Origin: a virus
Virus record (IMG/VR): IMGVR_UViG_3300048999_000006
Span: 1 to 31,108 of that record
Strand: one strand, 5' to 3'
Length of the DNA: 31,108 nt
Shown here: positions 116-25,680 of the stretch, in pieces
How the letters are laid out: each line of letters begins with the position of its first letter
How positions within the stretch are numbered: the stretch's first letter is position 1
Program-made: the position numbers and the translations under genes
The notes under the pieces: generated by a model
What the model was told of the DNA's origin: nothing
The model's input: the letters and a program-made list of their open reading frames with translations, nothing else
The model's database searches: none

Positions 116-362
116 CGCAAGCAAGTTGCTGAAGCGGTGGGGCAAGATGGCCGAGAGGTACCAGGCCAGCATCGATCAGCAGCGCCACGTGATTGACCGA
201 CTCATGGCAGCGATGGCCGTGTACGCAGACCTAGCGTATGGGGTGGAGAACGAGGCCAAGGACGTCAAGCAGGCCCGCAAGTGGGCCAAGGAGGCGCAAG
301 CCAAGGTGGCGGCCATTCTGGCCGTACCACAGACGCAGCAGGAGGAGAAGAAGGATGGCTGA
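96..362 (+). CDS. Hypothetical helical protein, 88 aa
   Basis: The GTG start at 96 is preceded by a strong ribosome binding site (AAGGAGG at 84-90). The protein is basic at the N-terminus and then largely helical, with long Ala/Lys/Glu/Gln stretches consistent with a coiled coil. It has no membrane segment and no motif I recognise. It overlaps the next gene by 8 bases, so the two are probably translationally coupled. Function unknown. Confidence 0.7.
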   Translation: MSAKRSDASKLLKRWGKMAERYQASIDQQRHVIDRLMAAMAVYADLAYGVENEAKDVKQARKWAKEAQAKVAAILAVPQTQQEEKKDG

Positions 363-1008
363 GAGATACATCGACATCTTGTTCGATGGCCCACCGGACC
401 ACCAGGGTGGGCGGTTCGTTGAGGTCGAGAACGAGAGGGGACAGAGCATCAACGCTGGCACGTGGATCAGCCCTGTCGCGACCGAGGACGCAGACGGCAA
501 GAGCGATGGCCTGTGGAGGCTGCGCATCAAGGTCACGCCGTCGCTCAACAACATGGCTCGGATGATCCATGACGTCAGTACGGCGCATGGGTTCGATGCT
601 CCCAACCCGTCGAACCTGCCGAGCAAGTTGATGCTCAGCGTGACGGAGTTGGCTGAGGCCATGGAGGAGTTCCGTGACGACAAGCCAGCCGTGTACTGGA
701 AGTGCACGGCGTGCGGCATGGAGTCCTCCGAGCCTCTGTCGCCGGCCATCGCGCACAGGCCTACTGTCAGAGGGTTCTGGGGTCACCTGATGGCGCTGTA
801 CAACGCGGCGACGGGCAAGACCATCGAGTGTGATGGGAGCGAGTGGAAGCCTGAGGGTGTGGCGGTGGAGTTGGCTGACTCCAACATCAGGAACCTCCAC
901 ATGCTCGCATCGATGTACCCAGACCTGGATCTGGACTGGCTCCATCAGATCAAGATGGAGTTCAACGAGGGACGACCGATGAACCACGGAAGGATCAAGG
1001 CACTCTGA
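355..1008 (+). CDS. MazG-like nucleotide pyrophosphohydrolase with extra N-terminal module
   Basis: The protein (217 aa) starts at ATG 355, overlapping the previous stop; an upstream in-frame ATG at 238 lies inside the preceding gene and is rejected. Residues about 90-217 match the all-alpha NTP pyrophosphohydrolase (MazG-like) pattern: SVTELAEAMEEF at 95-106 supplies the first acidic helix, VELADSNIR at 171-179 the ExxD helix, and a C-terminal KMEFNEGRPMNHG typical of phage members. Such enzymes hydrolyse (d)NTPs to NMP and pyrophosphate. Two things are odd. There is an N-terminal module of about 60 residues (FVEVENERGQSINAGTW region). There is also an insertion of about 50 residues between the two acidic helices carrying a CxxC pair (C117, C120). 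It sits close to ThyX and a deoxyribosyltransferase-like gene, which fits nucleotide-pool control. The fold call is fairly firm; the substrate is unknown. Confidence 0.75.
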   Translation: MAERYIDILFDGPPDHQGGRFVEVENERGQSINAGTWISPVATEDADGKSDGLWRLRIKVTPSLNNMARMIHDVSTAHGFDAPNPSNLPSKLMLSVTELAEAMEEFRDDKPAVYWKCTACGMESSEPLSPAIAHRPTVRGFWGHLMALYNAATGKTIECDGSEWKPEGVAVELADSNIRNLHMLASMYPDLDLDWLHQIKMEFNEGRPMNHGRIKAL

Positions 1009-1286
1009 TGAACACACTGGACACCCTGCTCGCCTACAGCGAATGGCTGGACGGCGAGAAGATCAACCCCAGCGACTCCGAGGACGAGAGGACTCACGAG
1101 GACCTGGTGAAGCAGTTCATCGCACACTGGGACGAGAACCCAGAGCGCGCACGGCTTGCCGACGCAGCACAGGCGAACCTCGGCATGGCCACGACGTACG
1201 ACATCATCACGGAGTTGGCTGCGCGAGCAGACGTGGCTGACACGATTGGTGAGGACTGGCCCAGGTACAGGACGGTTGACTCATGA
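1008..1286 (+). CDS. Hypothetical acidic protein, 92 aa
   Basis: The start ATG at 1008 overlaps the stop of the MazG-like gene (TGATG). The protein is acidic, soluble and predicted helical, with Trp residues at both ends and a DEDERTHEDL-like charged stretch near residue 25. No catalytic motif or known family is visible. It is embedded between two nucleotide-metabolism genes and coupled to both, so a role in the same process is possible but is only inferred from position. Confidence 0.7.
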   Translation: MNTLDTLLAYSEWLDGEKINPSDSEDERTHEDLVKQFIAHWDENPERARLADAAQANLGMATTYDIITELAARADVADTIGEDWPRYRTVDS

Positions 1287-1657
1287 TCAAGGTGTACCTG
1301 AGCGGCCCCATCAACAGCGACGTGGGTGACGGGCTCGACAAGGACGACCACAAGGAGGCGTTCGCCGACCTGGCCAGGTGGCTCAAGCAGAACTACGGCA
1401 ACTGGGAGGTCGTGAACCCTTGCGAGGTCGGGCCGAACTGCAAGCAGATGGACTGTGGTCCGTTCGATGGCCACTCGTTCGGCTGCTGGCTCAAGGCCGA
1501 CCTCAAGGCCATGCTCGACTGTGACGCCATCTGCTTCCTGCCCTTCTCTGACCGCAGCATGGGTGCTCGGCTGGAGGGCCACGTCGCACAAGGCGTGGGC
1601 ATGGACACGTACTACGCAACGCCCATCGGGGCCACATCATGGAGGATCGACAGATGA
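1283..1657 (+). CDS. DUF4406 / nucleoside 2-deoxyribosyltransferase-like protein
   Basis: The 124-residue protein begins with VYLSGPI (residues 4-10), the characteristic first strand and loop of the nucleoside 2-deoxyribosyltransferase superfamily. It then has VVNPCE (43-48), a KADLKAMLDCDAICFLP strand (71-87) and GARLEGHVAQGVGM (94-107), in which E98 lies where the family's catalytic Glu is expected. Family members cleave or transfer the N-glycosidic bond of deoxynucleosides or nucleoside monophosphates. Phage DUF4406 proteins are mostly uncharacterised. A Cys-rich insertion (C53, C58, C68) breaks the usual helix spacing. ATGA overlaps at both ends tie it to its neighbours. Confidence 0.7.
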   Translation: MIKVYLSGPINSDVGDGLDKDDHKEAFADLARWLKQNYGNWEVVNPCEVGPNCKQMDCGPFDGHSFGCWLKADLKAMLDCDAICFLPFSDRSMGARLEGHVAQGVGMDTYYATPIGATSWRIDR

Positions 1658-1893
1658 CAGAGCAACGACCAGTCGAGTACATGTCGGCGCGCGAGGCCAG
1701 GCAGGAACTGCTTGCGTCCATCACGCCGTCACAGGCCATGGTGGTCCGGCTGATGGTGAGCATCCTCGCCAAGGCCTGGGGCACCTTCAAGGGCACGCTC
1801 ACTCCGAGGCAGAAGGAGTTGCTGGCGCGCATCGGCAAGGACGAGAACGTCAGCACCATGATCAGTGACGTCGAGGAGTTCGTGGAGCGATGA
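1654..1893 (+). CDS. Hypothetical protein, 79 aa
   Basis: ATG 1654 is preferred over the in-frame ATG 1639. It forms an ATGA overlap with the previous stop and has GGAGG about 8 bases upstream. The protein is mostly helical with a hydrophobic central helix (MVVRLMVSILAKAW) and a short TPRQKELLARI segment. No family recognised. It overlaps the ThyX start by four bases, so expression is coupled. Confidence 0.7.
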   Translation: MTEQRPVEYMSAREARQELLASITPSQAMVVRLMVSILAKAWGTFKGTLTPRQKELLARIGKDENVSTMISDVEEFVER

Positions 1894-3005
1894 ACGACCA
1901 GGTGCTTGGAGAGGCCATGCAGGACCTGCATGGTTACAACCCACTCAAGGAGGACAAGCCAGTGGCCAAGGAAGTACAGCGATGGGCCGACGACGCGATG
2001 TTCAAGGCTGAGCCGCTCAAGGCCAGCGACGGCATCAAGGTGTTCATGTTGGCCGGCACGCCCGATCCGTTGGGCGCCGTCGCAGCGATGAGCAAGATGT
2101 ACAAGGGTGAGGTGGTGCGAGACTTCGCAGACGTCACTCGTGAGGAGCGCGAGGAGTTCCTGCGTGAGATTCTCAAGACCAAGTTGAAGGCTCCGCTGGA
2201 GGCTGTGAAGATGCACTTCATGGTCGAGGGTGTGACGCGATCCTTCACCCATCAGATGGTCCGACAGCGGACTGCGGTGTACGCGCAGGAGTCTCTGCGG
2301 TTCGCCGTCAAGGAGGACATGGCCGAGGGTGTGGCGTACCCACCGAGCCTCATCGGTGTCGATGACTGGGAAGGCATCGGCGAGAGGAGCACGGATCAGG
2401 AGATGCTGGCCATCTGGGACAATGCCGTGAACTTCATCGACATGTCCTACAACCGTCTGGTCAACATGGGCATGCCGGCTGAGGATGCTCGTGGTCTGCT
2501 GCCGCACAACGTCACCACGCGGCTCAACTACGTGACTGACCTGCGCGCGCTCCAGGACCATGGTGGGAACCGTCTGTGTACGCAGGCTCAGTTTGAGTGG
2601 CGCATCTACTGGGTGCGACTCCTCGACGCCATGCGGCACTACTGCTCCAACCCGGTACACGGATCGGTGCCGCAGGCTCTCCATGAGGGCTCAAGCCATG
2701 CGTGCGACAACTGGCAGTGGGTGGCCATCGCGGACATCTTCAGGCCAGTCTGCTACCTGACGGGCAAGTGCGAGTTCAAGGCCAACTTCGATCGCAAGTG
2801 CTCCATCAGGGATCGTGTGGAGGCCAACCACAACATCGGTCGTCCGAGCGATGACTGGAGCGGGGAGTACGACCACGTGAAGGGCAACCCCATCGTGGCT
2901 GGAGTCGGCCCGAGGAGCGTGGTGCGTGACGAGGAGGACACGCCGGTGTTCATCGGTGCGATCCAGCCGCGCGAGTGGCTGTTGGACGCAGGTGCTGCGC
3001 GATGA
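1890..3005 (+). CDS. thyX: Flavin-dependent thymidylate synthase ThyX
   Basis: The 371-residue protein carries the ThyX signatures. The RHR-x7-S motif appears as RQRTAVYAQESLR (R125, R127, S135, R137), and a second conserved block, LLPHNVTTRLNYVTDLRAL followed by CTQAQFEWR, spans about residues 203-238. ThyX makes dTMP from dUMP using methylenetetrahydrofolate, FAD and NADPH. The canonical His of the motif is Gln here, a divergence at a usually conserved position. The protein is longer than the usual 220-250 residues because of a C-terminal extension of about 110 residues with several Cys (CYLTGKCEF and KCSIRDR). It sits downstream of MazG-like and DUF4406 genes in one coupled operon, pointing to supply or remodelling of the thymidine pool. 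Confidence 0.9.
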   Translation: MNDQVLGEAMQDLHGYNPLKEDKPVAKEVQRWADDAMFKAEPLKASDGIKVFMLAGTPDPLGAVAAMSKMYKGEVVRDFADVTREEREEFLREILKTKLKAPLEAVKMHFMVEGVTRSFTHQMVRQRTAVYAQESLRFAVKEDMAEGVAYPPSLIGVDDWEGIGERSTDQEMLAIWDNAVNFIDMSYNRLVNMGMPAEDARGLLPHNVTTRLNYVTDLRALQDHGGNRLCTQAQFEWRIYWVRLLDAMRHYCSNPVHGSVPQALHEGSSHACDNWQWVAIADIFRPVCYLTGKCEFKANFDRKCSIRDRVEANHNIGRPSDDWSGEYDHVKGNPIVAGVGPRSVVRDEEDTPVFIGAIQPREWLLDAGAAR

Positions 3006-5378: not shown

Positions 5379-5689
5379 GCCACGACCTCGCAGACAAGAT
5401 CAGGACAGGCACAGCATTCCTCTCAGCCGTAGGGCTCCTGCTGTTGGTGCTGGAGACCAAGCACCTGTGGAAGTTCATCAGCGGCGCAAGGAAGTTGCGC
5501 TACATCTCGCTGTCCATGTTCGGCTCAGCGATCTGCTACGGGTCGTTGGAGGCAGCGTACTGGCCACAGCATCAGATCAGGGTGGTGTGGCTGTTCCTCG
5601 CCGCGCTCTCCATGGTGATCGCAGGCTGGGCTGGAGTCAAGAAGAACAGAGACAACCGACAGGAGTACAACAACCGTGCTGGTAAGTGA
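5375..5689 (+). CDS. Membrane protein with about three transmembrane segments, 104 aa
   Basis: An ATGA overlap sets the start. Hydrophobic segments are visible at about residues 13-27 (TAFLSAVGLLLLVLE), 43-61 and 69-86 (VVWLFLAALSMVIAGWAGV), followed by a basic C-terminus, which suggests the tail is cytoplasmic. It is not next to the lysis genes, so a holin role is unlikely from context. It may act at the host membrane, for example in superinfection immunity, but that is inference. Confidence 0.6.
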   Translation: MSHDLADKIRTGTAFLSAVGLLLLVLETKHLWKFISGARKLRYISLSMFGSAICYGSLEAAYWPQHQIRVVWLFLAALSMVIAGWAGVKKNRDNRQEYNNRAGK

Positions 5690-6374
5690 CAAGCATGAGT
5701 TCGTGATCGCGTGCCCAACCAAGACAGGCACCACATCGCTGCTGGCGCTCGCGGCTCACTACAAGCGCCATGGTGGTGACCCTGAGGTATTCACTGCTCT
5801 GCGTGGGGAGCCGATGACCAAGCACCGCATGGCGCCTCCTCCGGGGAAGGAGCACTACAAGCGCATCATGATCGTACGCAACGAGCGTGACCGTCTGGTG
5901 TCGATGTACGAGTGGCTGCGTCGTGTTGCGAGGGATGAGGCCATAGGTCGAGCCATCGTCAAGGCAGAGGCAGATGGGGACCGGAGGCGTGGTTGGGTCG
6001 AGATGCTCAAGGTGTTCGTCCATGAGCAGGAGCAGCCGGACTACCTCAACCTCAGGGCGAGACGCTGGGGCGGCGCACGGCCATACATGTGGGTTGACTC
6101 CCTGGACCTTCTCTCTGACGTCGTCCGTGGCGACCTCGTGGGGCAGCGCGCCCCGTGGTTCCGAGGAGGCGTGGTTGCCTGTGAGCCGATTGAGGCGATG
6201 GATGTGCGTGGCTTGCTCCACGACCTTGGGGTGCGGGACTCGCGGTTGCTGTCGGCTGAGGTGAAGCGCCTCAACCATACACGTGTGTCGGCAAGGCTGT
6301 TCCCGACGACTGATGAGTACCTCATGGTGCGTGGTGCGAGGCGCTGGCTGGATCGTCTGGTGTGGCGAATCTAG
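5676..6374 (+). CDS. Sulfotransferase-like protein (PAPS-binding motifs)
   Basis: The GTG at 5676 has AGGAG about 10 bases upstream and overlaps the membrane-protein gene by 14 bases. The 232-residue protein begins, after a short strand, with CPTKTGTTSLLALA (residues 13-26). This is the 5'-phosphosulfate-binding loop of sulfotransferases (Lys16 and Thr-Thr-Ser). IMIVRNERDRLVSMYEWLR (65-82) matches the 3'-phosphate-binding motif with R68 and S76. The C-terminal LNHTR and FPTTDEYLMVRGARRWLDR resemble the usual sulfotransferase end. Such enzymes move sulfate from PAPS to a hydroxyl or amine on a glycan, lipid or peptide. The acceptor is unknown. It is the last gene of the left operon. Confidence 0.7.
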   Translation: MLVSDKHEFVIACPTKTGTTSLLALAAHYKRHGGDPEVFTALRGEPMTKHRMAPPPGKEHYKRIMIVRNERDRLVSMYEWLRRVARDEAIGRAIVKAEADGDRRRGWVEMLKVFVHEQEQPDYLNLRARRWGGARPYMWVDSLDLLSDVVRGDLVGQRAPWFRGGVVACEPIEAMDVRGLLHDLGVRDSRLLSAEVKRLNHTRVSARLFPTTDEYLMVRGARRWLDRLVWRI

Positions 6375-7215: not shown

Positions 7216-7848
7216 ATGAGTGACGAGGGTGTCGACCCCAAGCGCCGTGAGCCAGGTCGGCCACGTGGCACAAAGGTCAGCGACGCACAACGTGCTGCTG
7301 GCAAGGCCAACCTCACCAAGGCTCACGAGGCTCGGAGAGCGCGCAAGGAGGCCAGGAAGGCAGCACCCAAGCAGAAGCCGCGATGGAAGCAGTTGGAGGA
7401 TGGTGACATCCACGTTGCTGACCTGACGACCAAGGAGTTGTCGAGGCGATCCTGTGCGAACAACGACGGCTCATGGGAGGGTGCGAGGCATCAGTTGCCC
7501 AAGCGGCTGACTGACGCCATGGCCGGCGAGGAGGTACGCCGCTGGCGCAAGACGATGCGCAGCCTGGTGCGTCCTGCCCTCAAGGCCATCAACACGCGCA
7601 TAGAGGACGACGACAACCCGGCCCAGCAGTTCGCCGCTGCCAAGATGGCGATTGAGTACGGGCTGGGCAAGGTTCCTGAGGTCGTCCACCACGGTCTGGA
7701 GACAGAGTTCGACCGGATGTCGCAGTCAGCGTTCATCATCCGTCGTGGTCCAGACTTGGCCGCAGAACTTGAGGCTCATCAGGAGCCCAAGGAGGAAGGC
7801 ACCAGCGATGACATCGTTGAGGCCGAACTGGTAGAGGAGGAAGCATGA
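7216..7848 (+). CDS. Probable terminase small subunit
   Basis: ATG 7216 is preceded by GGAGGTG. The 210-residue protein has a very basic N-terminal third containing an AT-hook-like core (GRPRGTK, residues 14-20) and a Lys/Arg/Ala-rich helix. A helical middle follows, then LVRPALKAINTRIEDDDN and AAKMAIEYGLGKVPE, a pattern common near the C-terminus of phage small terminases. The tail is acidic. The small subunit recognises phage DNA and recruits the large subunit. The assignment depends on position two genes before the large terminase and on these features; a general DNA-binding protein is the alternative. Confidence 0.55.
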   Translation: MSDEGVDPKRREPGRPRGTKVSDAQRAAGKANLTKAHEARRARKEARKAAPKQKPRWKQLEDGDIHVADLTTKELSRRSCANNDGSWEGARHQLPKRLTDAMAGEEVRRWRKTMRSLVRPALKAINTRIEDDDNPAQQFAAAKMAIEYGLGKVPEVVHHGLETEFDRMSQSAFIIRRGPDLAAELEAHQEPKEEGTSDDIVEAELVEEEA

Positions 7849-8639
7849 CCGGCAAGACCAAGTACGCTGACGTGCTCATACAGCACAACAGCATGCAGTT
7901 CAGCGACGACGTCAAGCAGCACACGCACGACACGCGCGCTGTCTTCCAGCACGCACGCGAGACGGGTGCGCTGTTCGTGACGGGCACGGAGTCGGGCACA
8001 TCGCCGCTGAACCACGACCTCCATGACCTCGTCATCGAGGCAGCCAAGGAGTTCGACTACCACGTCAACGCTCACAAGTGGGGCGACTGGGCGGCTGTCG
8101 ACAAGAGGCGTGTCCTCAAGGACTCCATCGCCCATGGGTATGAGGGACCGTTCGTGCCTGGTACCAAGGGCCTCAAGGCAAGCCAGGGCGGTCACTCGCC
8201 TCGTGGGATCACGACCATCACCGCTGAGGTGAAGGCCAAGGGTGTGGGTGTCGTGACCATCGGCTCCTGCCACTTCCTCACCCATCGCTCGACCGTGGTG
8301 TCTGGACCCAACACGCCGCTGGTCGATGGGATCGCACGGTGGGCCCATGGTGCCGGCTCTGGACACAACCTGGTGTTCCTCGACGCTGATGCCAACCTCA
8401 ACGACGAGAGGGTGGATGTCTTCAACGGCAACCCGCTGACCACGTGCTGGGATGAACTGGATCGGTACCCAGCCACGCATGGGCTCAACAAGAAGCGTGG
8501 GACGACCATCGACATCATCGCGTCGTACGACAAGGATGGGCGTGTGACGTGCAAGTGGGCCGACTCGCTCGATGACAGCGACCTGAAGTTGGCCACCGAC
8601 CACTTCATGATCCAGGCTCTGTACAAGGTGAAGGTCTGA
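7845..8639 (+). CDS. Endonuclease/exonuclease/phosphatase (EEP) family metal-dependent hydrolase
   Basis: The 264-residue protein shows all the EEP superfamily motifs in order: LIQHNS (N15), FVTGTES (E49), GSCHFLTH (H143), VFLDADANLND (D180/D182 and N184), GTTIDIIAS (D223), and a final ATDHFMI with the catalytic Asp-His pair (D252, H253). These residues bind Mg2+ and cleave phosphodiesters in DNA, RNA or small molecules. ATGA couples it to the putative small terminase, and it is followed by the large terminase. A nuclease acting in packaging or genome-end processing is the natural inference, but family members also act on nucleotides and phospholipids. No signal peptide is visible, so it should be cytoplasmic. 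Confidence 0.75.
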   Translation: MTGKTKYADVLIQHNSMQFSDDVKQHTHDTRAVFQHARETGALFVTGTESGTSPLNHDLHDLVIEAAKEFDYHVNAHKWGDWAAVDKRRVLKDSIAHGYEGPFVPGTKGLKASQGGHSPRGITTITAEVKAKGVGVVTIGSCHFLTHRSTVVSGPNTPLVDGIARWAHGAGSGHNLVFLDADANLNDERVDVFNGNPLTTCWDELDRYPATHGLNKKRGTTIDIIASYDKDGRVTCKWADSLDDSDLKLATDHFMIQALYKVKV

Positions 8640-8642
8640 CCC

Positions 8643-8921
8643 ATGAGCGACGGGCAAACGCCCGAGCCTGTTGAGATCAGTGAGGCCATCTCCCAGCGAC
8701 TCAGTGAGGCCATCAACGCGGTCCTTGCCGAGGAGTTGGGAGGTGGCTTCCTCTCAGGGTTCATCGGGCTCGTCAAGTACATCGATGCGGATGGCGACAA
8801 CAACTGGTCGTTCGTGGCCATGGGCGACCAGTCGCTGGACACGTCCCTCGGGATGCTCCACATCGCCAACGCCATCACAGACAGGCAGATGAAGGAGGTG
8901 TGGGGTCTTGACCGTGGCTGA
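8643..8921 (+). CDS. Hypothetical protein, 92 aa
   Basis: It starts three bases after the EEP gene. An N-terminal helix (ISEAISQRLSEAINAVLAEE) leads into a small alpha/beta part with GFIGLVKYIDADGDNNWSF and a C-terminal helix. The D-x-D-x-D-x-N run (DADGDNN) resembles a calcium-loop spacing but lacks the rest of an EF-hand. It overlaps the terminase start by 14 bases. Function unknown. Confidence 0.65.
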   Translation: MSDGQTPEPVEISEAISQRLSEAINAVLAEELGGGFLSGFIGLVKYIDADGDNNWSFVAMGDQSLDTSLGMLHIANAITDRQMKEVWGLDRG

Positions 8922-10377
8922 TCAGACCACCATGCTAGACACGGCCCAGGTGTTCCGTTCTGCGAACTACCGGCCGCACGCAGGCCAGGTGCCGTACCAC
9001 GCGAGCGATGCGCGCAACAGGGTGGCGTCCTGCGGCCGACGGTTCGGCAAGTCCCAGATGGGTGGCCATGAGTTGGACCTGGAGGCCATGGCTACCAAGG
9101 CACACCTGGCGTACCTGGAGGAGGTACAGCAGCGGCGTGAGTTCTGGATCGTGGGGCCCAACTACTCCGACAGTGAGAAGGAGTTTCGTGTCCACTACAA
9201 CAGCCTGAAGCGCATGGGGTTCCCGTTCGACAAGCCTGGCACCTACAACAACCCTCATGGCGGCGACATGGTCATCTCGCTGTACAAGGGCAAGTACCTC
9301 GTCCAGGCGATGTCTGCGGCGCATCCCGAGAGCCTGGTGGGTGAGGGACTCAGCGGCGTGATCATGGCTGAGGCCGCCAAGCAGAAGGAGTCCACGTGGT
9401 CCAAGTTTCTGCGCCCGACCCTGGCTGACTTCCACGGCTGGTCTCAGTTCACCAGTACACCTGAGGGCAAGAACTGGTTCTATGACCTGTGGAACGACGG
9501 CCAGGATGTCACCAACCCTGACTGGGCGTCATGGCGCATGCCGTCGTGGCTGAACCCGTACGTGTACCCGATGGGCGCCACCGAGTCCAAGATCAAGACG
9601 CTGCGTGCTGCGTTGGAGGAGGGAGCGTTTGACTGGCGTCGTCTCGTCCAGCGGCTCGGCATCGACCCCGAGGTTGCGAGCCTGGTGCGTGACCTCAACG
9701 ATGCCACGTTCGATCAGGAGATTGGTGCTGACTTCAACACCATGGCTGGTCGCGTGTTCTCGGACTTCGATGAGGAGGTCCACGTCACAGACCTGCGCTG
9801 GAACCCGGCATGGGAGACGTACGCAGCAGTGGACTATGGCTTCACCAATCCGTTCGTGTGGCTGCTGATCCAGATTGATCCGTTTGGCTGCGTGTACGTG
9901 GTGGATGAGTACTACCAGCGAGGACTGACCATCGATGAGATCGCCTGGGAACTCTCGGCCCGTCCTGAGTTGACGGCTGGTGTCCGCTGGTTCTACCCAG
10001 ACCCGGCAAGCCCTGGTGACACAGTGGCGTTGGAGAAGCACCTGCGCATCCAGGCCCATGGAGGGACCGGTGGTGAGTTGGAGCATCGCCTGCGCTACAT
10101 CCGCGCAGCCCTCAAGGTCCGCAACCGTCACCTGGCGTTTGATGACCCTGATCGCAAGCCCAAGTTGCTCATCAACCGTCGGTGTACGCACACCATCGAT
10201 GAGTTCGGCAAGTACAGGTACCCAGAGAAGCGTGGTGAGCGCAACGACGACGAGAAGCCGATGAAGAAGGACGATCACACGCCTGAGGCACTGGGGCGGT
10301 TCTACGCAGGCCACTATGGCGAGCAGCCAGACGAGCAGGGAGGACAGGCGGCAGTGGTTCAGGCCCGTCTCGGGTAA
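8908..10377 (+). CDS. Terminase large subunit
   Basis: The 489-residue protein starts at TTG 8908, with GAAGGAGGTG seven bases upstream; GTG 8914 is a weaker alternative. It packages DNA into the prohead with an N-terminal ATPase and cuts it with a C-terminal RNase H-fold nuclease. The Walker A-like loop is CGRRFGKS (42-49). A hydrophobic strand ending in an acid (VIMAEAA, E155) replaces the usual DE Walker B. TSTPEGKNWF (182-191) is the coupling motif. Nuclease acids are D309 in AAVDYGFTN, E334 in VVDEYY and D365 in FYPDPAS. Length is normal. It is followed by a 34-base gap. Confidence 0.93.
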   Translation: MTVADQTTMLDTAQVFRSANYRPHAGQVPYHASDARNRVASCGRRFGKSQMGGHELDLEAMATKAHLAYLEEVQQRREFWIVGPNYSDSEKEFRVHYNSLKRMGFPFDKPGTYNNPHGGDMVISLYKGKYLVQAMSAAHPESLVGEGLSGVIMAEAAKQKESTWSKFLRPTLADFHGWSQFTSTPEGKNWFYDLWNDGQDVTNPDWASWRMPSWLNPYVYPMGATESKIKTLRAALEEGAFDWRRLVQRLGIDPEVASLVRDLNDATFDQEIGADFNTMAGRVFSDFDEEVHVTDLRWNPAWETYAAVDYGFTNPFVWLLIQIDPFGCVYVVDEYYQRGLTIDEIAWELSARPELTAGVRWFYPDPASPGDTVALEKHLRIQAHGGTGGELEHRLRYIRAALKVRNRHLAFDDPDRKPKLLINRRCTHTIDEFGKYRYPEKRGERNDDEKPMKKDDHTPEALGRFYAGHYGEQPDEQGGQAAVVQARLG

Positions 10378-10411: not shown

Positions 10412-10639
10412 ATGGGAGTAGCAGAGAACAGGGCCAAGTCGTCGGCCCAGGCAGCGTTCATGAAGGAGCGTGGCATCATGCGCCGCTCGGGCCAGTGCCC
10501 GTGGGGTTGCGGTGCGACGTACAGCACGAGCCCGACTGGTGAGGGTGGTGGCACGTCCCTGCTGTCGCACCTGACTCGTTGCGTGGGTGGCGCGGCAGCC
10601 AAGCGCAGCAGGCGTTCGTTCGTTGGGCGTCGGTCGTGA
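10412..10639 (+). CDS. Small basic protein with a Cys/His zinc site, 75 aa
   Basis: GGAGG lies about five bases before ATG 10412. The protein has CPWGCG, then about 20 residues later SHLTRC, giving a C-x3-C...H-x3-C zinc-finger-like arrangement. It ends in a strongly basic tail (KRSRRSFVGRRS). Such small fingers often bind nucleic acid. Its place just after the large terminase suggests a role near packaging, but that is positional inference. Confidence 0.6.
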   Translation: MGVAENRAKSSAQAAFMKERGIMRRSGQCPWGCGATYSTSPTGEGGGTSLLSHLTRCVGGAAAKRSRRSFVGRRS

Positions 10640-11013
10640 GTGCGTTCGCGCTGATCGTGTTCACCGGCGTGCGTGATGACGGCAAGGTCGAGGAGATGAC
10701 GCGTGAGGCCGACGACATCGAGCACGTGGGGCGCCTGCTGAGGGAGTTGGTCGAGGACGGCATGGCCTGGAAGGCAGTGACCGTCGTCCACATCGAGGAC
10801 TACCCGCGCATGATGGACGGTGCCCTCCAGGAGAGCATGCCGCCCATGCCTGGTTCCAAGAACAAGTGCGGGCACTGCGGTGAGGACATCATCTACGTCG
10901 TCCCGGTCGATGAGCCTGGTGGCAGCCAGACAGGCCCTGGGTACTGGATCCACGAGTCGACAGACATCAACGATGGCCATGAGGCCGTCCCAGCCAACAT
11001 GTCGTCGTCATGA
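10636..11013 (+). CDS. Hypothetical protein with CxxC knuckle, 125 aa
   Basis: GTG 10636 overlaps the previous stop (GTGA); an upstream in-frame ATG at 10579 lies inside the previous gene. The N-terminal part looks like a small alpha/beta domain with a long acidic helix (READDIEHVGRLLRELVEDG). A CGHCGED zinc-knuckle half follows near residue 82. No second Cys pair is present, so zinc binding is uncertain. It overlaps the glycosyltransferase gene by four bases. Confidence 0.6.
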   Translation: MSAFALIVFTGVRDDGKVEEMTREADDIEHVGRLLRELVEDGMAWKAVTVVHIEDYPRMMDGALQESMPPMPGSKNKCGHCGEDIIYVVPVDEPGGSQTGPGYWIHESTDINDGHEAVPANMSSS

Positions 11014-11810
11014 GCCACGGTGTCTACATCCACACGAGGAATCGGCTCAAGTTCTTGGAGCAGACCCTCCCCAAGTGGCCGGCTGTCACGCCGGATGACG
11101 TCGAGTTGACGTTGGTGGTTGAGCCCAACGAGGTCAAGAAGCATCTGCGCTTCCTCAAGGAGCATGACCTCAAGGATCGCGTTGGAGTCCTCGGGCTCAG
11201 CGACACGAACCTGGGGATGGGCAACAGTCGCAACGAGGCGTTCCATGACGCGCAGCGGAAGGGGCACGAGTCCTTCATCACGACGGACGATGACCTGTTC
11301 CCCATGGACGACCCGACCATCCTGCTGGAGACCGCTGCGTACACAGATGACCTCCTCGGAGTCGGTTGCTACTTCTCCATGTACGGCCTGCTGCTGAAGT
11401 TGAAGCGCAACACGGGCCTGTACAAGGTCGGCGTGGGCCTGGGGTTCCGGTGCTTTGCGATGAACACCGGCATGCTCGACCTCGTGGGAGGGTTCCCTGT
11501 CGAGTTCAAGGGGTACGACGACCACGAGATTGCTCGCATGGGTATCTCGCAGTTGAACGTGCCCTGGTACATCGACACGGACATGGCGTGTAACAGCGTT
11601 GCCAAGATCGGCGACCCTGGTGGTATGACCAGCCTGCCAGGTTACGCTCGGGTGGTGGATCGCAAGCACACGGCCCACGTCCTGACCCACAAGAACTGGC
11701 CTGGGTTCGTGTCCAACCCGGAGAAGTGCGACCCTGACAGCGGCAGGTGTACGTACACGATGCAGTGGAAGAAGTTTCTTCAGGCCAACAACGTGTCACT
11801 GGAAGGATGA
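11010..11810 (+). CDS. GT-A fold glycosyltransferase
   Basis: The 266-residue protein opens with VYIHTRNR, has LTLVVEPNE (34-41), then NLGMGNSRNEAF (67-78), and FITTDDDLFP (89-98). In the last, the DDD at 93-95 is the metal and nucleotide-sugar binding DxD. KGYDDHEIARM (167-177) supplies the later acceptor-side acids. These are the landmarks of an inverting GT2-like enzyme that moves a sugar from a nucleotide sugar to an acceptor. The VVEP and N-L-G-x-G-x-x-R-N pairing also recalls the TET-associated glycosyltransferases that decorate hydroxymethylated bases. Lying between terminase and portal, it could instead decorate virion proteins. The acceptor is unknown. A Cys-containing tail (EKCDPDSGRCTY) follows the catalytic part. 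Confidence 0.75.
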   Translation: MSHGVYIHTRNRLKFLEQTLPKWPAVTPDDVELTLVVEPNEVKKHLRFLKEHDLKDRVGVLGLSDTNLGMGNSRNEAFHDAQRKGHESFITTDDDLFPMDDPTILLETAAYTDDLLGVGCYFSMYGLLLKLKRNTGLYKVGVGLGFRCFAMNTGMLDLVGGFPVEFKGYDDHEIARMGISQLNVPWYIDTDMACNSVAKIGDPGGMTSLPGYARVVDRKHTAHVLTHKNWPGFVSNPEKCDPDSGRCTYTMQWKKFLQANNVSLEG

Positions 11811-11813
11811 TCG

Positions 11814-13292
11814 ATGAGCGTTCAGCCACTGGAGGTGTTCACTCCGTACAGCAGCGTGGCTCCGCTGTTCACAGCCACGCCGCAGTGGATGTCGGAGGGA
11901 GACGCCCAGCGCGTCACGGCTTACCAGGTCTATGAGCAGATCTACTGGAGCGTGCCAGACACGTTCAAGTTGATGAGCCGTGGAGCCGAGGACCGTCCCA
12001 TCTACGTCCCGACTGGCAAGACCATCGTGGACACCACGAACAGGTACGTGGGCAAGTCGTGGGGTCCCATCATCGATCCTGCGTTCGGCTCAACCAGCGA
12101 ACAGGCTGCGCTCCGACTCGCGTTGGCCCAACTGTTCAGCCGAGAGAAGATGTTCAGCCTGTACAACTCATCCAAGCGTTACGGCATGATCCGTGGCGAC
12201 TGGCTATTCCACATCATCGGCAACGACCTCAAGGCCCCAGGCACGCGCATCAAGATTGAGGCCGTGGACCCTGCGGCCTACTTCCCGGTGCCGCACCCGG
12301 ACGACCCTGACCGGATCATCGGCTGCCACATCGTGGAACAGATCCAGACCGAGGACGGCTGGAAGTTGAAGCGCCAGACGTACCAGAAGGGTGCGGACCC
12401 TGTCGCCAACGACGGCAGCGACACGACCATCTACAACAGCGTGGCGACCTTCAACGGTGACTCGTGGGAGACGTTCGACGCCAAGCCTGTGACGATCATC
12501 ACGCCGATCCACGCTCTGCCTCCGCAGATCACCGCGCTGCCGGTGTACCACCTCAAGAACATCGAGACGCCAGGCGATCCGTTCGGCACCAGCGAACTCC
12601 GTGGCCTTGAGCGCATCATGGCCGCCGTGAACCAGGCCATCAGCGATGAGGAGTTGGCGCTTGCCCTTGACGGGCTGGGTGTCTACGCCACAGATGCTGG
12701 TACTCCGGCAGGTGGCCAGTGGATCATCGGCCCTGGTCGTGTCGTCCAGAAGCCCAAGGGCACAGACTTCACGCGAGTGAGCGGTGTTCAGAGCGTCGTC
12801 CCCATGCAGAGCCACCTTGAGTTCCTGATGAAGGCACTGAAGGAGGGATCGGGCACACCCGACATCGCCATCGGCATCGTCCAGGTGGCCCAGGTGAGCG
12901 GCATCTCGCTCCTCCTCCAGATGGGGCCGATGCTCTCCAAGGCTGAGGAGCGCGAGACTGGCATCAGCGGAGTGATGGACAACTTCCTCCACGACCTGAT
13001 CACCCAGTGGCTGCCTGCGTATGAGCAGACTTCCTTCAACGCCATGTGCGTCTCGTCGTTCGGCGACGTGCTGCCGCCAGACCGCGCAGCGATTCTTGGT
13101 GAGATCATTCAGATCGCAGGCTTGCCTGGTGTTGTAGACACCGCTTGGATCCAGGGAGAACTCGCCAAGTTGGGCTACGTGTTCGCCAACGAGACGGCAG
13201 GACGTGCGATGAACGAGTTGCAGGCCCGTGCTCAGGCTCTTGACCCGTTCGGAGCCAGGATCGTTGCTGAGGAGGGAGATGTCCAGGCGTGA
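11814..13292 (+). CDS. Portal protein
   Basis: The 492-residue protein starts at ATG 11814 with GGAAGG upstream. It forms the dodecameric ring at the head vertex through which DNA enters and leaves. Support comes from its length, its place after the large terminase and before a MuF-like protein, and features of the SPP1 gp6/HK97-type portals: an N-terminal region with Tyr/Trp-rich helices (AYQVYEQIYWSVPDTF), a beta wing with EAVDPAAYFPVPHP, a stem/clip region, and a helical C-terminus. No catalytic motif is expected. Confidence 0.85.
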   Translation: MSVQPLEVFTPYSSVAPLFTATPQWMSEGDAQRVTAYQVYEQIYWSVPDTFKLMSRGAEDRPIYVPTGKTIVDTTNRYVGKSWGPIIDPAFGSTSEQAALRLALAQLFSREKMFSLYNSSKRYGMIRGDWLFHIIGNDLKAPGTRIKIEAVDPAAYFPVPHPDDPDRIIGCHIVEQIQTEDGWKLKRQTYQKGADPVANDGSDTTIYNSVATFNGDSWETFDAKPVTIITPIHALPPQITALPVYHLKNIETPGDPFGTSELRGLERIMAAVNQAISDEELALALDGLGVYATDAGTPAGGQWIIGPGRVVQKPKGTDFTRVSGVQSVVPMQSHLEFLMKALKEGSGTPDIAIGIVQVAQVSGISLLLQMGPMLSKAEERETGISGVMDNFLHDLITQWLPAYEQTSFNAMCVSSFGDVLPPDRAAILGEIIQIAGLPGVVDTAWIQGELAKLGYVFANETAGRAMNELQARAQALDPFGARIVAEEGDVQA

Positions 13293-15830: not shown

Positions 15831-17096
15831 ATGGGTAACCTGATGACTGCGCGCAAGAGCGCGTTCGGTGGAGACTTCCTCCACCAGCCTGCGCTCACCA
15901 TGCTGGATCGCAAGGGTGGACTGCTCCCTCGCATCGCCGGCATGGACGAGCACATCGATCCCGCCGAACTGGGCATCATCCTGGGTGTGGCTGGTGGTGA
16001 CCGTGGCTTCCACGCTGCGGCCGACATCGTCACGCAGACCCAGGACGGGATGGACATCAACACCCTGTGGGACACGTACCAGCGCTGGCTGGACTCGTGG
16101 AACTCCGCACGGGAGACGTTGGTCAACTTCTTCACCTACAACACCACCGCTTCCTTCGAGAACGTGTGGCAGGGTGGAAGCCAGGCCGACTTCGAGGACG
16201 CCACTGAGTTCGGTGAGCCGGTGGGCGCACGCCCGACCAGCACGCCGGCAGTCATGGGCTTCCCCTTCAAGTGGAGCGACCTGGCTGGCCGCTTCACCTG
16301 GCAGTTCCTTGCGAACGCTCCGGCTTCGCAGGTGGACTCGTTCGCCAACATGGCGATGGAGGCCGACAGCCGCCTGGTGTTCCTCCGGGTGATGCGCGCG
16401 CTGTTCAGCAACGTGCGTGGGGTCAACAAGGAAGGTCAGACCACGTTCCCGTTCTACAGCGGCGTGGCCGGCGACAAGCCTCCGACCTACAAGATGACCG
16501 TGTTCGCCGACTCGCACAACCATTTCGTGACCAGTGGCACGGCCACGGTGACGCCTGCGAACCTGGAGGCCCTCATCGGCCTGCTGGAGGAGCACGGCTA
16601 CACCAAGGCCAACGGTTACGACTCGGTGGTGCTGGTGAACAAGGCGCAGGGCAACACCATCCGCAACTTCCGGTCGGTGGCCAACGGTGGCACCGGTCTG
16701 TACGACTTTGTCGTTGCGCAGGGTGCTCCCTCGTTCCTCATCCCCACCACGATGGTCACCGAGGGTGGACGCCCGCCGGCAACCGTCAACGGTCTGACCG
16801 TCATCGGGTCCTACGGCGACGCGACCATCATCCAGGAGGACTACATCCCTGCTGGCTACATGGTCGCCATCGTCACCGGTGGTGAGCAGAACCTGTCCAA
16901 CCCGCTCGCGTTCCGCGAGCACCCGACGGCCACTCTGCGTGGTCTGCGGTTGGTCAAGGGTCGCAACCCTGACTACCCGCTGATTGACTCCTTCTACATC
17001 CGTGGATGTGGTGTGGGGGTCCGTCATCGTGGTGCTGGTGCCGTGATGCAGGTGTCCACCAACCCGACGTACGCCATCCCGGCGCAGTACGTCTGA
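15831..17096 (+). CDS. Major capsid protein
   Basis: The 421-residue protein follows scaffold and decoration genes and is followed by connectors, the standard place for an HK97-fold capsid protein. Its start follows the previous stop by one base with AAGGGG upstream. The first 80 residues form an extended helical arm, and a long central alpha/beta region has Trp-rich strands (WDTYQRWLDSWNSARE). The C-terminal half contains a VVLVNKAQGNTIRNF strand-helix element and GYMVAIVTGGEQNLSNPL. A specific HK97 crosslinking pair cannot be judged from sequence alone. Confidence 0.85.
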   Translation: MGNLMTARKSAFGGDFLHQPALTMLDRKGGLLPRIAGMDEHIDPAELGIILGVAGGDRGFHAAADIVTQTQDGMDINTLWDTYQRWLDSWNSARETLVNFFTYNTTASFENVWQGGSQADFEDATEFGEPVGARPTSTPAVMGFPFKWSDLAGRFTWQFLANAPASQVDSFANMAMEADSRLVFLRVMRALFSNVRGVNKEGQTTFPFYSGVAGDKPPTYKMTVFADSHNHFVTSGTATVTPANLEALIGLLEEHGYTKANGYDSVVLVNKAQGNTIRNFRSVANGGTGLYDFVVAQGAPSFLIPTTMVTEGGRPPATVNGLTVIGSYGDATIIQEDYIPAGYMVAIVTGGEQNLSNPLAFREHPTATLRGLRLVKGRNPDYPLIDSFYIRGCGVGVRHRGAGAVMQVSTNPTYAIPAQYV

Positions 17097-23796: not shown

Positions 23797-23830
23797 CGAC
23801 TATGACGACACGATTGATAGGATGAACTGA
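23669..23830 (+). CDS. Displaced 3' end of the tape-measure gene (or separate 38-aa ORF)
   Basis: In the +1 frame relative to the tape measure, codons from 23669 read GGTIKRKKKGNGGGH, then MTMSGALTLKDGQAYVEG and an acidic end (LDNNDDDYDDTIDRMN). The stop at 23828-23830 overlaps the next start as TGATG. This fits a phage tape-measure end much better than the annotated frame. Skipping base T23668 joins LEAT to GGTIKRK smoothly. ATG 23714 could alternatively start a separate small gene. A natural indel, a programmed shift and a sequencing error all remain possible. Confidence 0.5.
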   Translation, partial: GGTIKRKKKGNGGGHMTMSGALTLKDGQAYVEGIASGLDNNDDDYDDTIDRMN

Positions 23831-25680
23831 TGGGCGCGCCAGTCACAGTCAAGAACGCCACGGACACTTGGGTCAACTCGGCCAAGCCGTCCAAGAACTA
23901 CGGCGAGGGGTCACGGCTGCAGTTGAAGACAGGCGCCAAGTCTGTACTGCTGTACTTCAACCGTCCGTGGACTCCTGGCTCCACGATCATGAGCGCCAAG
24001 TTGCGCGTGTACAACGTTGCGGCGTGGGCGGGCTCCGTGACGCTCACAGTCCAGCGTGCTGGGTCGGCTTGGTCGGTCAACAAGGCGAACTGGAACAACA
24101 AGCCTGCCGGCTCCGGTCCTACAGCGACCAAGAACCTGACTGGCGCTGCTGCCGGGACGATGTGGGAGATGGACGTTGCTCCGATCCTCCAGCCCATCGC
24201 CAACGGGCTCGCGTGGTACGGCCTGGTCCTGACCACGAACAACGCAGCCGACTCGGCCATCCACAGCGCACAGTCATCGTCTGGAGCACTGCGCCCGGTG
24301 CTGATCGTCCAGTGGAACGATCCTCCTGACGCCCCAGACAACCTGCGTCCTGCTGGTGGCCGCAACGCAGGCAAGGCCAGCCCATACGTCCAGTACGACT
24401 TCAACGACGCGAACGGAGACACTGACCTCCAGTCGCACCAGATCCAGTTCGGCGCGAGCACGGCCCTGCTTGACGCAGGCACCACGACGCTCGACCTCGG
24501 CGAGGTTGCCACGACCGTCCCTGAGGCAGACCTGAGCGATGCTGTCAAGTACCCGACATGGGTCGCGCTAGTTAGCGGGACTCAGAAGGCATGGAGGGTT
24601 CGCACCAAGGACTCTGCTGGCATCTGGTCTGTCTACTCGGACTCGCAGTTGTTTGGGTACCTCTCCAAGGGTGTCCTCACGATCACGAGCCCTGCTGTGG
24701 CGCCCAATAACTTCATCTGGGAGGGCAGCCCTGACGTCTCGTGGACGTTCACCGGTCGTACGCAGCGCGCGTACCAGGTGATCATCGCTGATGCGGCCGA
24801 CCCGAACACTTGGTTGTGGGACAGCGGGAAGATCACGAGCACTGCGACCTCGCAGACCATACCATTCCGTGTCATCAAGGACGCCGGCAAGTCGTACATC
24901 ATCACGGTGCGCATCTGGGACGACCAGGTCCGCGAGGCTCTGCCCAGCGACCCTGTGTACGTCGAGGGCACGATCACGGCCACAGTCGCCTACGACAACA
25001 CGGTGACTGCTGTGACTGCGCTCGCTGCGGTGTCGGACGCATACCTGCCCGTCGAGCACCTGACGTGGACGAGTGCCGTGGCTCCCGACTCCTTCCAACT
25101 CCAGCGCAGCAGCGACGGTGGCGCCACGTGGGAGTACAGGCGAGAGTTCTTGCCGACCGATGCGACCTTGGGCGGCACGTCGTACGGGTACGACGACAAC
25201 GGTGCGACTCCGTACCAGGCGTACCAGTGGCGTGTCATGAGGATCGTTGCAGGCAAGCAGTCTGGCAACAATCTTGTCGTCTCGGGACAGGTCCGCAAGT
25301 TGGCTCCGTTCCTGATGCGCAAGGACTCGACCGATGCTGTCTGCTTCCTGAACCCCAAGCGGAACAAGGGCAAGATGGACATCCAAGAGTTGATCCTGAC
25401 TCAGGCTGGCCCGCCCGTGCTCCAGACGCAGCGACTCGGAGGAGAGGCTGGGCACATCGAGGGAAGGTTCACGGACAACGACGCGATGGCCGGCGTGACC
25501 GCAGACATGCAGGCCGCGAGGTTTGAGCGGCTCCGCAAGGACAGCGGCATCGAGGTGACTGTGTACTACGCCAACCAGACGTTCAACGCCATCGCCTACA
25601 ACTTCCAGATCGACACGATCACAGACACTTCTGGCGTGTCGTATCTCGCATCGTTCGATTGGTTTGAGGTGCCCGCATGA
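23830..25680 (+). CDS. Minor tail protein with N-terminal DNRLRE domain
   Basis: The 616-residue protein starts with DTWVNSAKPSKNYGEGSRLQ and continues through LLYFNRPWTPGSTIMSAKLR to LRPVLIVQW near residue 163. This is the pattern of the DNRLRE beta-sandwich domain found on cell-surface and carbohydrate-associated proteins. Two or three fibronectin III-like domains follow (for example PPDAPDNLRPAGG and a LTWTSAVAPDSFQLQRSSDG strand pair). The C-terminus (TFNAIAYNFQIDTITDTSGV) resembles other siphophage distal tail proteins. It is coupled to the tape measure and the hub gene and probably forms part of the tail tip facing the cell. Confidence 0.7.
   Translation: MGAPVTVKNATDTWVNSAKPSKNYGEGSRLQLKTGAKSVLLYFNRPWTPGSTIMSAKLRVYNVAAWAGSVTLTVQRAGSAWSVNKANWNNKPAGSGPTATKNLTGAAAGTMWEMDVAPILQPIANGLAWYGLVLTTNNAADSAIHSAQSSSGALRPVLIVQWNDPPDAPDNLRPAGGRNAGKASPYVQYDFNDANGDTDLQSHQIQFGASTALLDAGTTTLDLGEVATTVPEADLSDAVKYPTWVALVSGTQKAWRVRTKDSAGIWSVYSDSQLFGYLSKGVLTITSPAVAPNNFIWEGSPDVSWTFTGRTQRAYQVIIADAADPNTWLWDSGKITSTATSQTIPFRVIKDAGKSYIITVRIWDDQVREALPSDPVYVEGTITATVAYDNTVTAVTALAAVSDAYLPVEHLTWTSAVAPDSFQLQRSSDGGATWEYRREFLPTDATLGGTSYGYDDNGATPYQAYQWRVMRIVAGKQSGNNLVVSGQVRKLAPFLMRKDSTDAVCFLNPKRNKGKMDIQELILTQAGPPVLQTQRLGGEAGHIEGRFTDNDAMAGVTADMQAARFERLRKDSGIEVTVYYANQTFNAIAYNFQIDTITDTSGVSYLASFDWFEVPA

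Follow-up and report, generated by a model that had tools for sequence, protein, structure and literature searches.

A putative GT-A glycosyltransferase gene with TAGT-like profile similarity between the terminase and portal genes of an uncultured phage, and its possible action on virion proteins

Gene and neighbourhood

The window, i.e. the whole stretch of DNA that was analysed, is a 31,108-base virus record from an uncultured phage. It is about half as long as the related records (59-65 kb) and is a genome fragment. Its head genes were closest to those of Gordonia, Mycobacterium, Microbacterium and Micrococcus phages, and its portal protein shared less than 60% identity with every match (about 35-39% in the best matches listed). 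The virion genes were assigned by profile matching to TerL (terminase large subunit; 8908-10377, +; phrog_2, E 1.9e-41), portal protein (11814-13292, +; phrog_64, E 5.4e-24) and MCP (15831-17096; phrog_3990, E 1e-104). Between TerL and the portal gene lie an ORF with a Cys-rich stretch (CGHCG) and a weak match to phrog_11565 (10579-11013, +; E 0.0053) and the gene for a GT-A glycosyltransferase (GT; 11010-11810, +). The stop of the former overlaps the start of the latter by 4 bases (ATGA), and the portal gene starts 3 bases beyond the GT stop. A PADLOC search gave no hits.

The GT ORF is open, starts with ATG and encodes 266 amino acids, and its GC contents by codon position (57, 38 and 84%, in a record of 61.6% GC) are typical of a real gene. 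By translation, the DDD at residues 93-95 (11286-11294, +), a candidate DxD motif for binding of metal and nucleotide sugar, was located, together with VVEPNE at residue 36 and NLGMGNSRNEAF at residue 67. The DDHE at residues 170-173 (11517-11528, +) was aligned with the ED motif of TAGTs (TET-associated glycosyltransferases) and is the putative counterpart of the GT2/TAGT ED motif; by analogy with GT2-type enzymes, the catalytic base is likely to be D171 or E173. A long hydrophobic run of the membrane-anchoring kind was not seen by eye in the GT sequence. The location of the gene between terminase and portal genes and its intact DDD had been proposed in an earlier note on this DNA, and both were confirmed by the intact ORF, the TerL and portal profiles and a homologue at the same place in a second viral contig, L001.

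Relatives, insertion and selection

The homologue in L001 (3495-4292) is 73% identical to the window GT and lies likewise exactly between TerL and portal genes. The corresponding identities of TerL and portal protein are 71% and 69%, respectively, which indicates that the gene diverged together with its neighbours. In L001 the GT gene begins 32 bases past the TerL stop, leaving no space for a counterpart of the Cys-rich ORF. Comparison of the two GT genes gave a dN of 0.22 and a dS of 0.81, and the gene is thus under purifying selection, with the C-terminal half (dN 0.13) more constrained than the N-terminal half (dN 0.37).

No GT was present at the TerL/portal junction in any of seven relatives, in six of which (the uncultured L010, L012 and L013, and the cultured Kurnik, Nocardia P3.1 and LittleFella) the gap between the two genes is within about 90 bases; in the seventh, L011, about 330 bases separate the TerL and portal matches. 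Because the junction lacks a GT in these relatives and carries one in L001, the gene is an insertion specific to its lineage, where it has been kept. L001 was the only close relative found in the GT-based searches of viral contigs, and the collections of phages and plasmids yielded none. Two matches in genome contigs were rejected, as both lay within flavin-monooxygenase-like proteins, and so were the pattern matches L078 and L079, which are not GTs.

Family placement

TAGTs add sugars to hydroxymethylated phage DNA. The TAGT set comprised 75 loci from viral contigs, 44 of which were used in alignment A5, in addition to those of LuckyBarnes, MW202897, DLP6 and T-even-type phages. The search against TAGT profiles that the earlier note had called for, and with it the proposed kinship, gave a divided result. 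The Pfam TAGT model (PF20691) scored 15.0 bits against a gathering threshold of 27.5 with the window and L001 proteins alike, as compared with 35.8 bits for T6 Ggt and 63.7 bits for MW202897 in the same test. By hhalign, in contrast, the pair of window and L001 proteins was aligned to the 44 TAGTs over residues 4-259 against 5-255 with a probability of 95.7 and an E-value of 9.8e-9. Residues 111-266 and 181-266 alone gave E-values of 2.8e-5 and 6.3e-5, respectively; when the columns of residues 111-266 were shuffled 40 times, the lowest E-value was 0.011.

As a single sequence scored with the TAGT profile, the window protein reached 56.3, above all of 28 cellular GT2s (best, 42.2). Its C-terminal half alone scored 33.5, a tie with the two best cellular GT2 controls (34.2 and 33.5), so that the discrimination from GT2s depends on the whole length and not on the C-terminal half by itself. 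A profile of 22 cellular GT2s was aligned to the window pair in the N-terminal half only (E 0.05). The GT was also matched by phrog_842, the family of T6 beta-glucosyl-HMC-alpha-glucosyltransferase (residues 5-254, E 9.4e-5), by phrog_2456 (residues 4-167, E 2.4e-5) and by a 73-sequence HMM (22.5 bits, E 2.6e-5). Since phrog_2456 had matches in 11 of 14 control genomes, it is taken as a generic GT profile; phrog_842, found in 2 of the 14, is more specific. In a HMMER genome search with the 44-TAGT profile the window gene was not picked up, and the link to TAGTs is therefore based on hhalign, phrog_842 and the 73-sequence HMM. Similarity between T6 Ggt alone and the window GT was found neither by BLASTP nor by hhalign, and a nine-sequence TAGT alignment gave an hhalign match in the C-terminal part only (E 0.0027); the 44-sequence profile was needed.

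In a 46-row alignment including the TAGTs, the C-terminal stretch at residues 204-257 (11619-11780, +), with GG..T...R, WPxFV and R....QWKK, was common to the GT and TAGTs. D93, D94, G205, R214 and W253 were invariant and D95, G204, P231 and V234 nearly so; R74 is a further TAGT-conserved position kept in the GT. The GT thus appears to share with TAGTs (PF20691/phrog_842, represented by the T6 enzyme and LuckyBarnes gp39/gp40) the GT-A fold, the DDD, an ED-type motif and the C-terminal motifs. It differs from them in its low identity (14-23% in alignments), in lacking two features of LuckyBarnes-type TAGTs, namely the F..R that follows DDD and a REGGNR-like motif, and in the absence of the Ala after QWKK. 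In the best trees, the window pair was placed on a very long branch outside the 29 sampled TAGTs, which were held together at SH-aLRT values of 92 and 98; nesting within one chosen TAGT subgroup was not rejected (p-AU 0.245).

By full-length profile comparison, then, the nearest known family of the window GT is TAGT, at a similarity that lies beyond the ordinary GT2 level over the full length, and the protein appears to be distantly related to the enzymes by which T-even phages add sugars to DNA. As it scored below the Pfam TAGT cut-off and branched outside the sampled TAGTs, it is described here as TAGT-related and not filed as a TAGT. The layout of VVEPNE and the NLGMGNSRNEAF segment, which had been read as recalling TAGTs, was dropped as evidence: such a layout is common to GT-A/GT2 enzymes in general, scores of 18-20 bits being reached by cellular GT2s with the N-terminal part of a TAGT profile, and phrog_2456 is as widespread as stated above.

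Cellular GT2s (PF00535) resemble the window GT in the N-terminal Rossmann-like half, the DDD region and an ED-like motif. The PF00535 (Glycos_transf_2) score, however, was 11.7 bits against a gathering threshold of 23.3, and the Pfam TAGT and Glycos_transf_2 matches were both confined to the N-terminal part. The cell-wall galactofuranosyltransferase model GlfT1 (NCBIfam) was matched by the L001 homologue only, at 17 bits against a cut-off of 330. Placement in a cell-wall GT family, which had been named beforehand as an outcome that would speak against the earlier proposal, was thus not found. Membership in the GT-B alpha- or beta-glucosyltransferases of T4 was not found either, neither PF11440 nor PF09198 being matched and the model being of the GT-A type.

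Structure model

Prediction with AF2 from two sequences gave a model too poor to use (pLDDT 46.8, pTM 0.43), whereas addition of the 44 TAGTs gave a GT-A model with a pLDDT of 75.3 and a pTM of 0.78, in which residues 102-145 are unreliable. PcManGT, WrtF and TarS were ranked first by Foldseek against the PDB. By VIA-align against the PDB, the top folds were GT27 polypeptide GalNAc-transferases (Z about 15, rmsd 3.6-3.9, about 221 residues aligned, 13-16% identity), from which the GT2 enzymes BcsA and PcManGT differed by only about 1 Z (14-15; GT27/GT2 neighbours overall, Z about 13-15), so that GT27 and GT2 folds were not separated in this list and the match carries no functional inference. 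In BFVD, Foldseek ranked TAGT-annotated phage proteins third and fourth and a beta-glucosyl-HMC-alpha-GT sixth. Because TAGTs were present in the AF2 alignment, the fold result and the viral ranking are partly circular and are only partly independent evidence. With its DDD, the AF2 model and GT-A enzymes as the top PDB matches, the window protein is predicted to belong to the GT-A superfamily, as defined by the GT-A fold and a DxD motif; the fold gives no information on the acceptor.

Partner genes for DNA modification

The ThyA Pfam family includes both thymidylate synthases and pyrimidine hydroxymethylases. Partner genes were counted in 45 TAGT-bearing viral records (L080-L154), a non-random sample of the family gathered by similarity to four TAGTs. 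A ThyA-type gene (counted at the level of PF00303, at which thymidylate synthase and hydroxymethylase are not distinguished) or a TET/JBP gene was present in 43 of the 45. The ThyA-type gene occurred in 40 records, in all 40 within 6.2 kb of the TAGT gene (median 1.4 kb), and a TET/JBP gene occurred in 3 of the other 5; the exceptions with neither were L109 (G421) and L122 (G428). With this statistic as a rule, DNA modification of the hydroxymethyl-based kind can be predicted from metagenomes.

At Pfam level, ThyA-type (PF00303), TET (PF12851) and C5-methyltransferase (PF00145) genes were all absent from the 31-kb window, in line with the earlier statement that it holds no TET/JBP and no cytosine methyltransferase; the ThyA-type gene can be added to that list. 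None of the three was found in the 14 kb of L001, which is a fragment as well. With the window being about half of its 59-65 kb relatives, this absence is no proof, as the sequence that is missing could encode a partner.

The window does encode ThyX (flavin-dependent thymidylate synthase; 1890-3005, +; Pfam Thy1, 106 bits). It was rejected as a source of hydroxymethyl groups or as part of a GT system, because it is also present in the GT-less relatives G003 and G005, and the GT-less L011 carries homologues of ThyX and DUF4406 as well as of phrog_1981 and TerS. ThyX belongs to a nucleotide-metabolism block (238-3005, +) that also includes pyrophosphatase-like and DUF4406/deoxyribosyltransferase-like proteins.

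Proposed function

The product of the gene would be a soluble, metal-dependent GT-A enzyme of the GT2/TAGT clan, probably inverting, as judged from its family. A nucleotide sugar would be bound by the N-terminal Rossmann-like half at the DDD, and D171 or E173 would act as the base. The phage lineage acquired the gene by insertion at the TerL/portal junction, and this position suggests that its transcription may be late, along with that of the head genes, and that the acceptor may be an abundant virion protein made concurrently (capsid, head or tail). The particles would thereby be glycosylated; in Che8-type mycobacteriophages such glycosylation, by other enzymes, is reported. Glycosylation of a virion protein by a TAGT-related GT-A enzyme of the late virion operon is the explanation preferred here, and it is held tentatively. 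A virion protein is more likely as the target than DNA, since the absence of TAGT-type partner genes near the GT makes decoration of the particle more probable than decoration of the genome.

Counted in favour of a virion target were the DDD, the TAGT profile match, the GT-A model, the TerL/portal location, kept in L001 and free of a GT in seven relatives, the lack of partners, the branch outside TAGTs and the mycobacteriophage precedents. According to passages in PMC11256854 and PMC11600133 (citing Freeman 2023), mycobacteriophage capsid and tail proteins are glycosylated by phage GTs; capsid glycosylation is reported for Che8, and the virion-glycosylating GTs reported for this phage lie outside a virion block. 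The three annotated Che8 GTs (gp108-110) resemble the window GT in belonging to an actinobacterial phage, in being GTs and in the proposed kind of acceptor. Their genes occupy the right end of the Che8 genome, whereas the window GT is in the head operon, and they have no detectable sequence relation to it (hhalign E 0.15-0.53). These differences were counted against a virion target, together with the DNA-acting nature of the nearest known family and the fragmentary state of the record.

It is possible, but less likely, that the protein is a divergent TAGT and adds sugars to hydroxymethylated pyrimidines in the phage's own DNA, with the hydroxymethylase or TET gene in the unsequenced half, the GT gene having moved to the late operon and DNA being modified at or just before packaging. 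The nearest family over the full length and the conserved TAGT-style C-terminal stretch agree with this, as do the improvement of the AF2 model on addition of TAGTs and the BFVD ranking, the last two with the circularity noted above. Against it, all expected partners are missing from the 31 kb sampled, while every ThyA-type gene in the TAGT records was close to the TAGT gene; the window GT forms a deep branch outside the sampled TAGTs; and the 59-61 kb relatives G003 and G005 have ThyX and neither ThyA nor TET, though they also lack the GT. From the suggestion that the enzyme is of the DNA-modifying type, the family relationship is retained in the sense that TAGT is the nearest known family; the other proposal of the earlier note, glycosylation of virion proteins, would agree better with the gene's position. 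In PMC13216743, TAGT homologues of phages that have neither alpha- nor beta-GT are presented as potential novel transferases, and many of the solitary homologues lack an assigned function.

Action on a surface or cell-wall glycan of the host, as in receptor masking or superinfection exclusion, by a GT carried as a moron would fit the generic GT2-like N-terminal half, the weak GlfT1 match of the L001 homologue and the moron-like insertion pattern, but is improbable given the failure of cell-wall families to reach their cut-offs, the lack of a hydrophobic anchor by eye, and the position of the gene within the head operon, directly adjoining the portal gene.

A further idea is that a relative of the DNA-glycosylating TAGT lineage was redirected to virion proteins or, alternatively, modifies DNA during packaging and does so without a hydroxymethylation partner of the usual kind; this is less probable still. 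Were it true, phages would switch one enzyme fold between armouring the genome and armouring the particle. A TAGT-related enzyme in a virion operon with no hydroxymethylation partner nearby, unlike TAGTs, makes a clean case for asking whether virion proteins, too, are glycosylated by members of the lineage, a question that bears on immune recognition of phages and on evasion of restriction.

Other observations

In Brevibacterium phage LuckyBarnes, an actinobacterial phage, two adjacent TAGT genes directly follow a ThyA-family gene of about 517 aa (gp41-gp39; L058, 2562-5726). A TAGT in a bacterial genome (L067, 1282-2148, -), scoring 163 bits with PF20691, lies beside ParB-like and methyltransferase-like proteins, perhaps in a prophage, and its C-terminal end is unlike that of phage TAGTs. 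Upstream of TerL in both GT-bearing phages, an endonuclease/exonuclease/phosphatase-like protein was recognized by eye (window 7845-8639, +; L001 427-1134, +), the window protein giving no Pfam match; in L001 a papain-type cysteine protease-like protein (1207-1854, +; QC, GGHEVELIG, MNSWGEDWG) was seen by eye just 5' of TerL. A sulfotransferase-like protein (window 5676-6374, +), with the motifs PTKTGTTSLL and RNERDRLVSMYEWLR, scored 22.0 bits with Pfam Sulfotransfer_1, exactly the cut-off, and had no relative in 50,697 phage records or in the related loci examined. A tail-region protein (window 23830-25680, +) carries a CBM96 carbohydrate-binding module and Rha78A-type Ig domains, which is consistent with binding of surface sugars.
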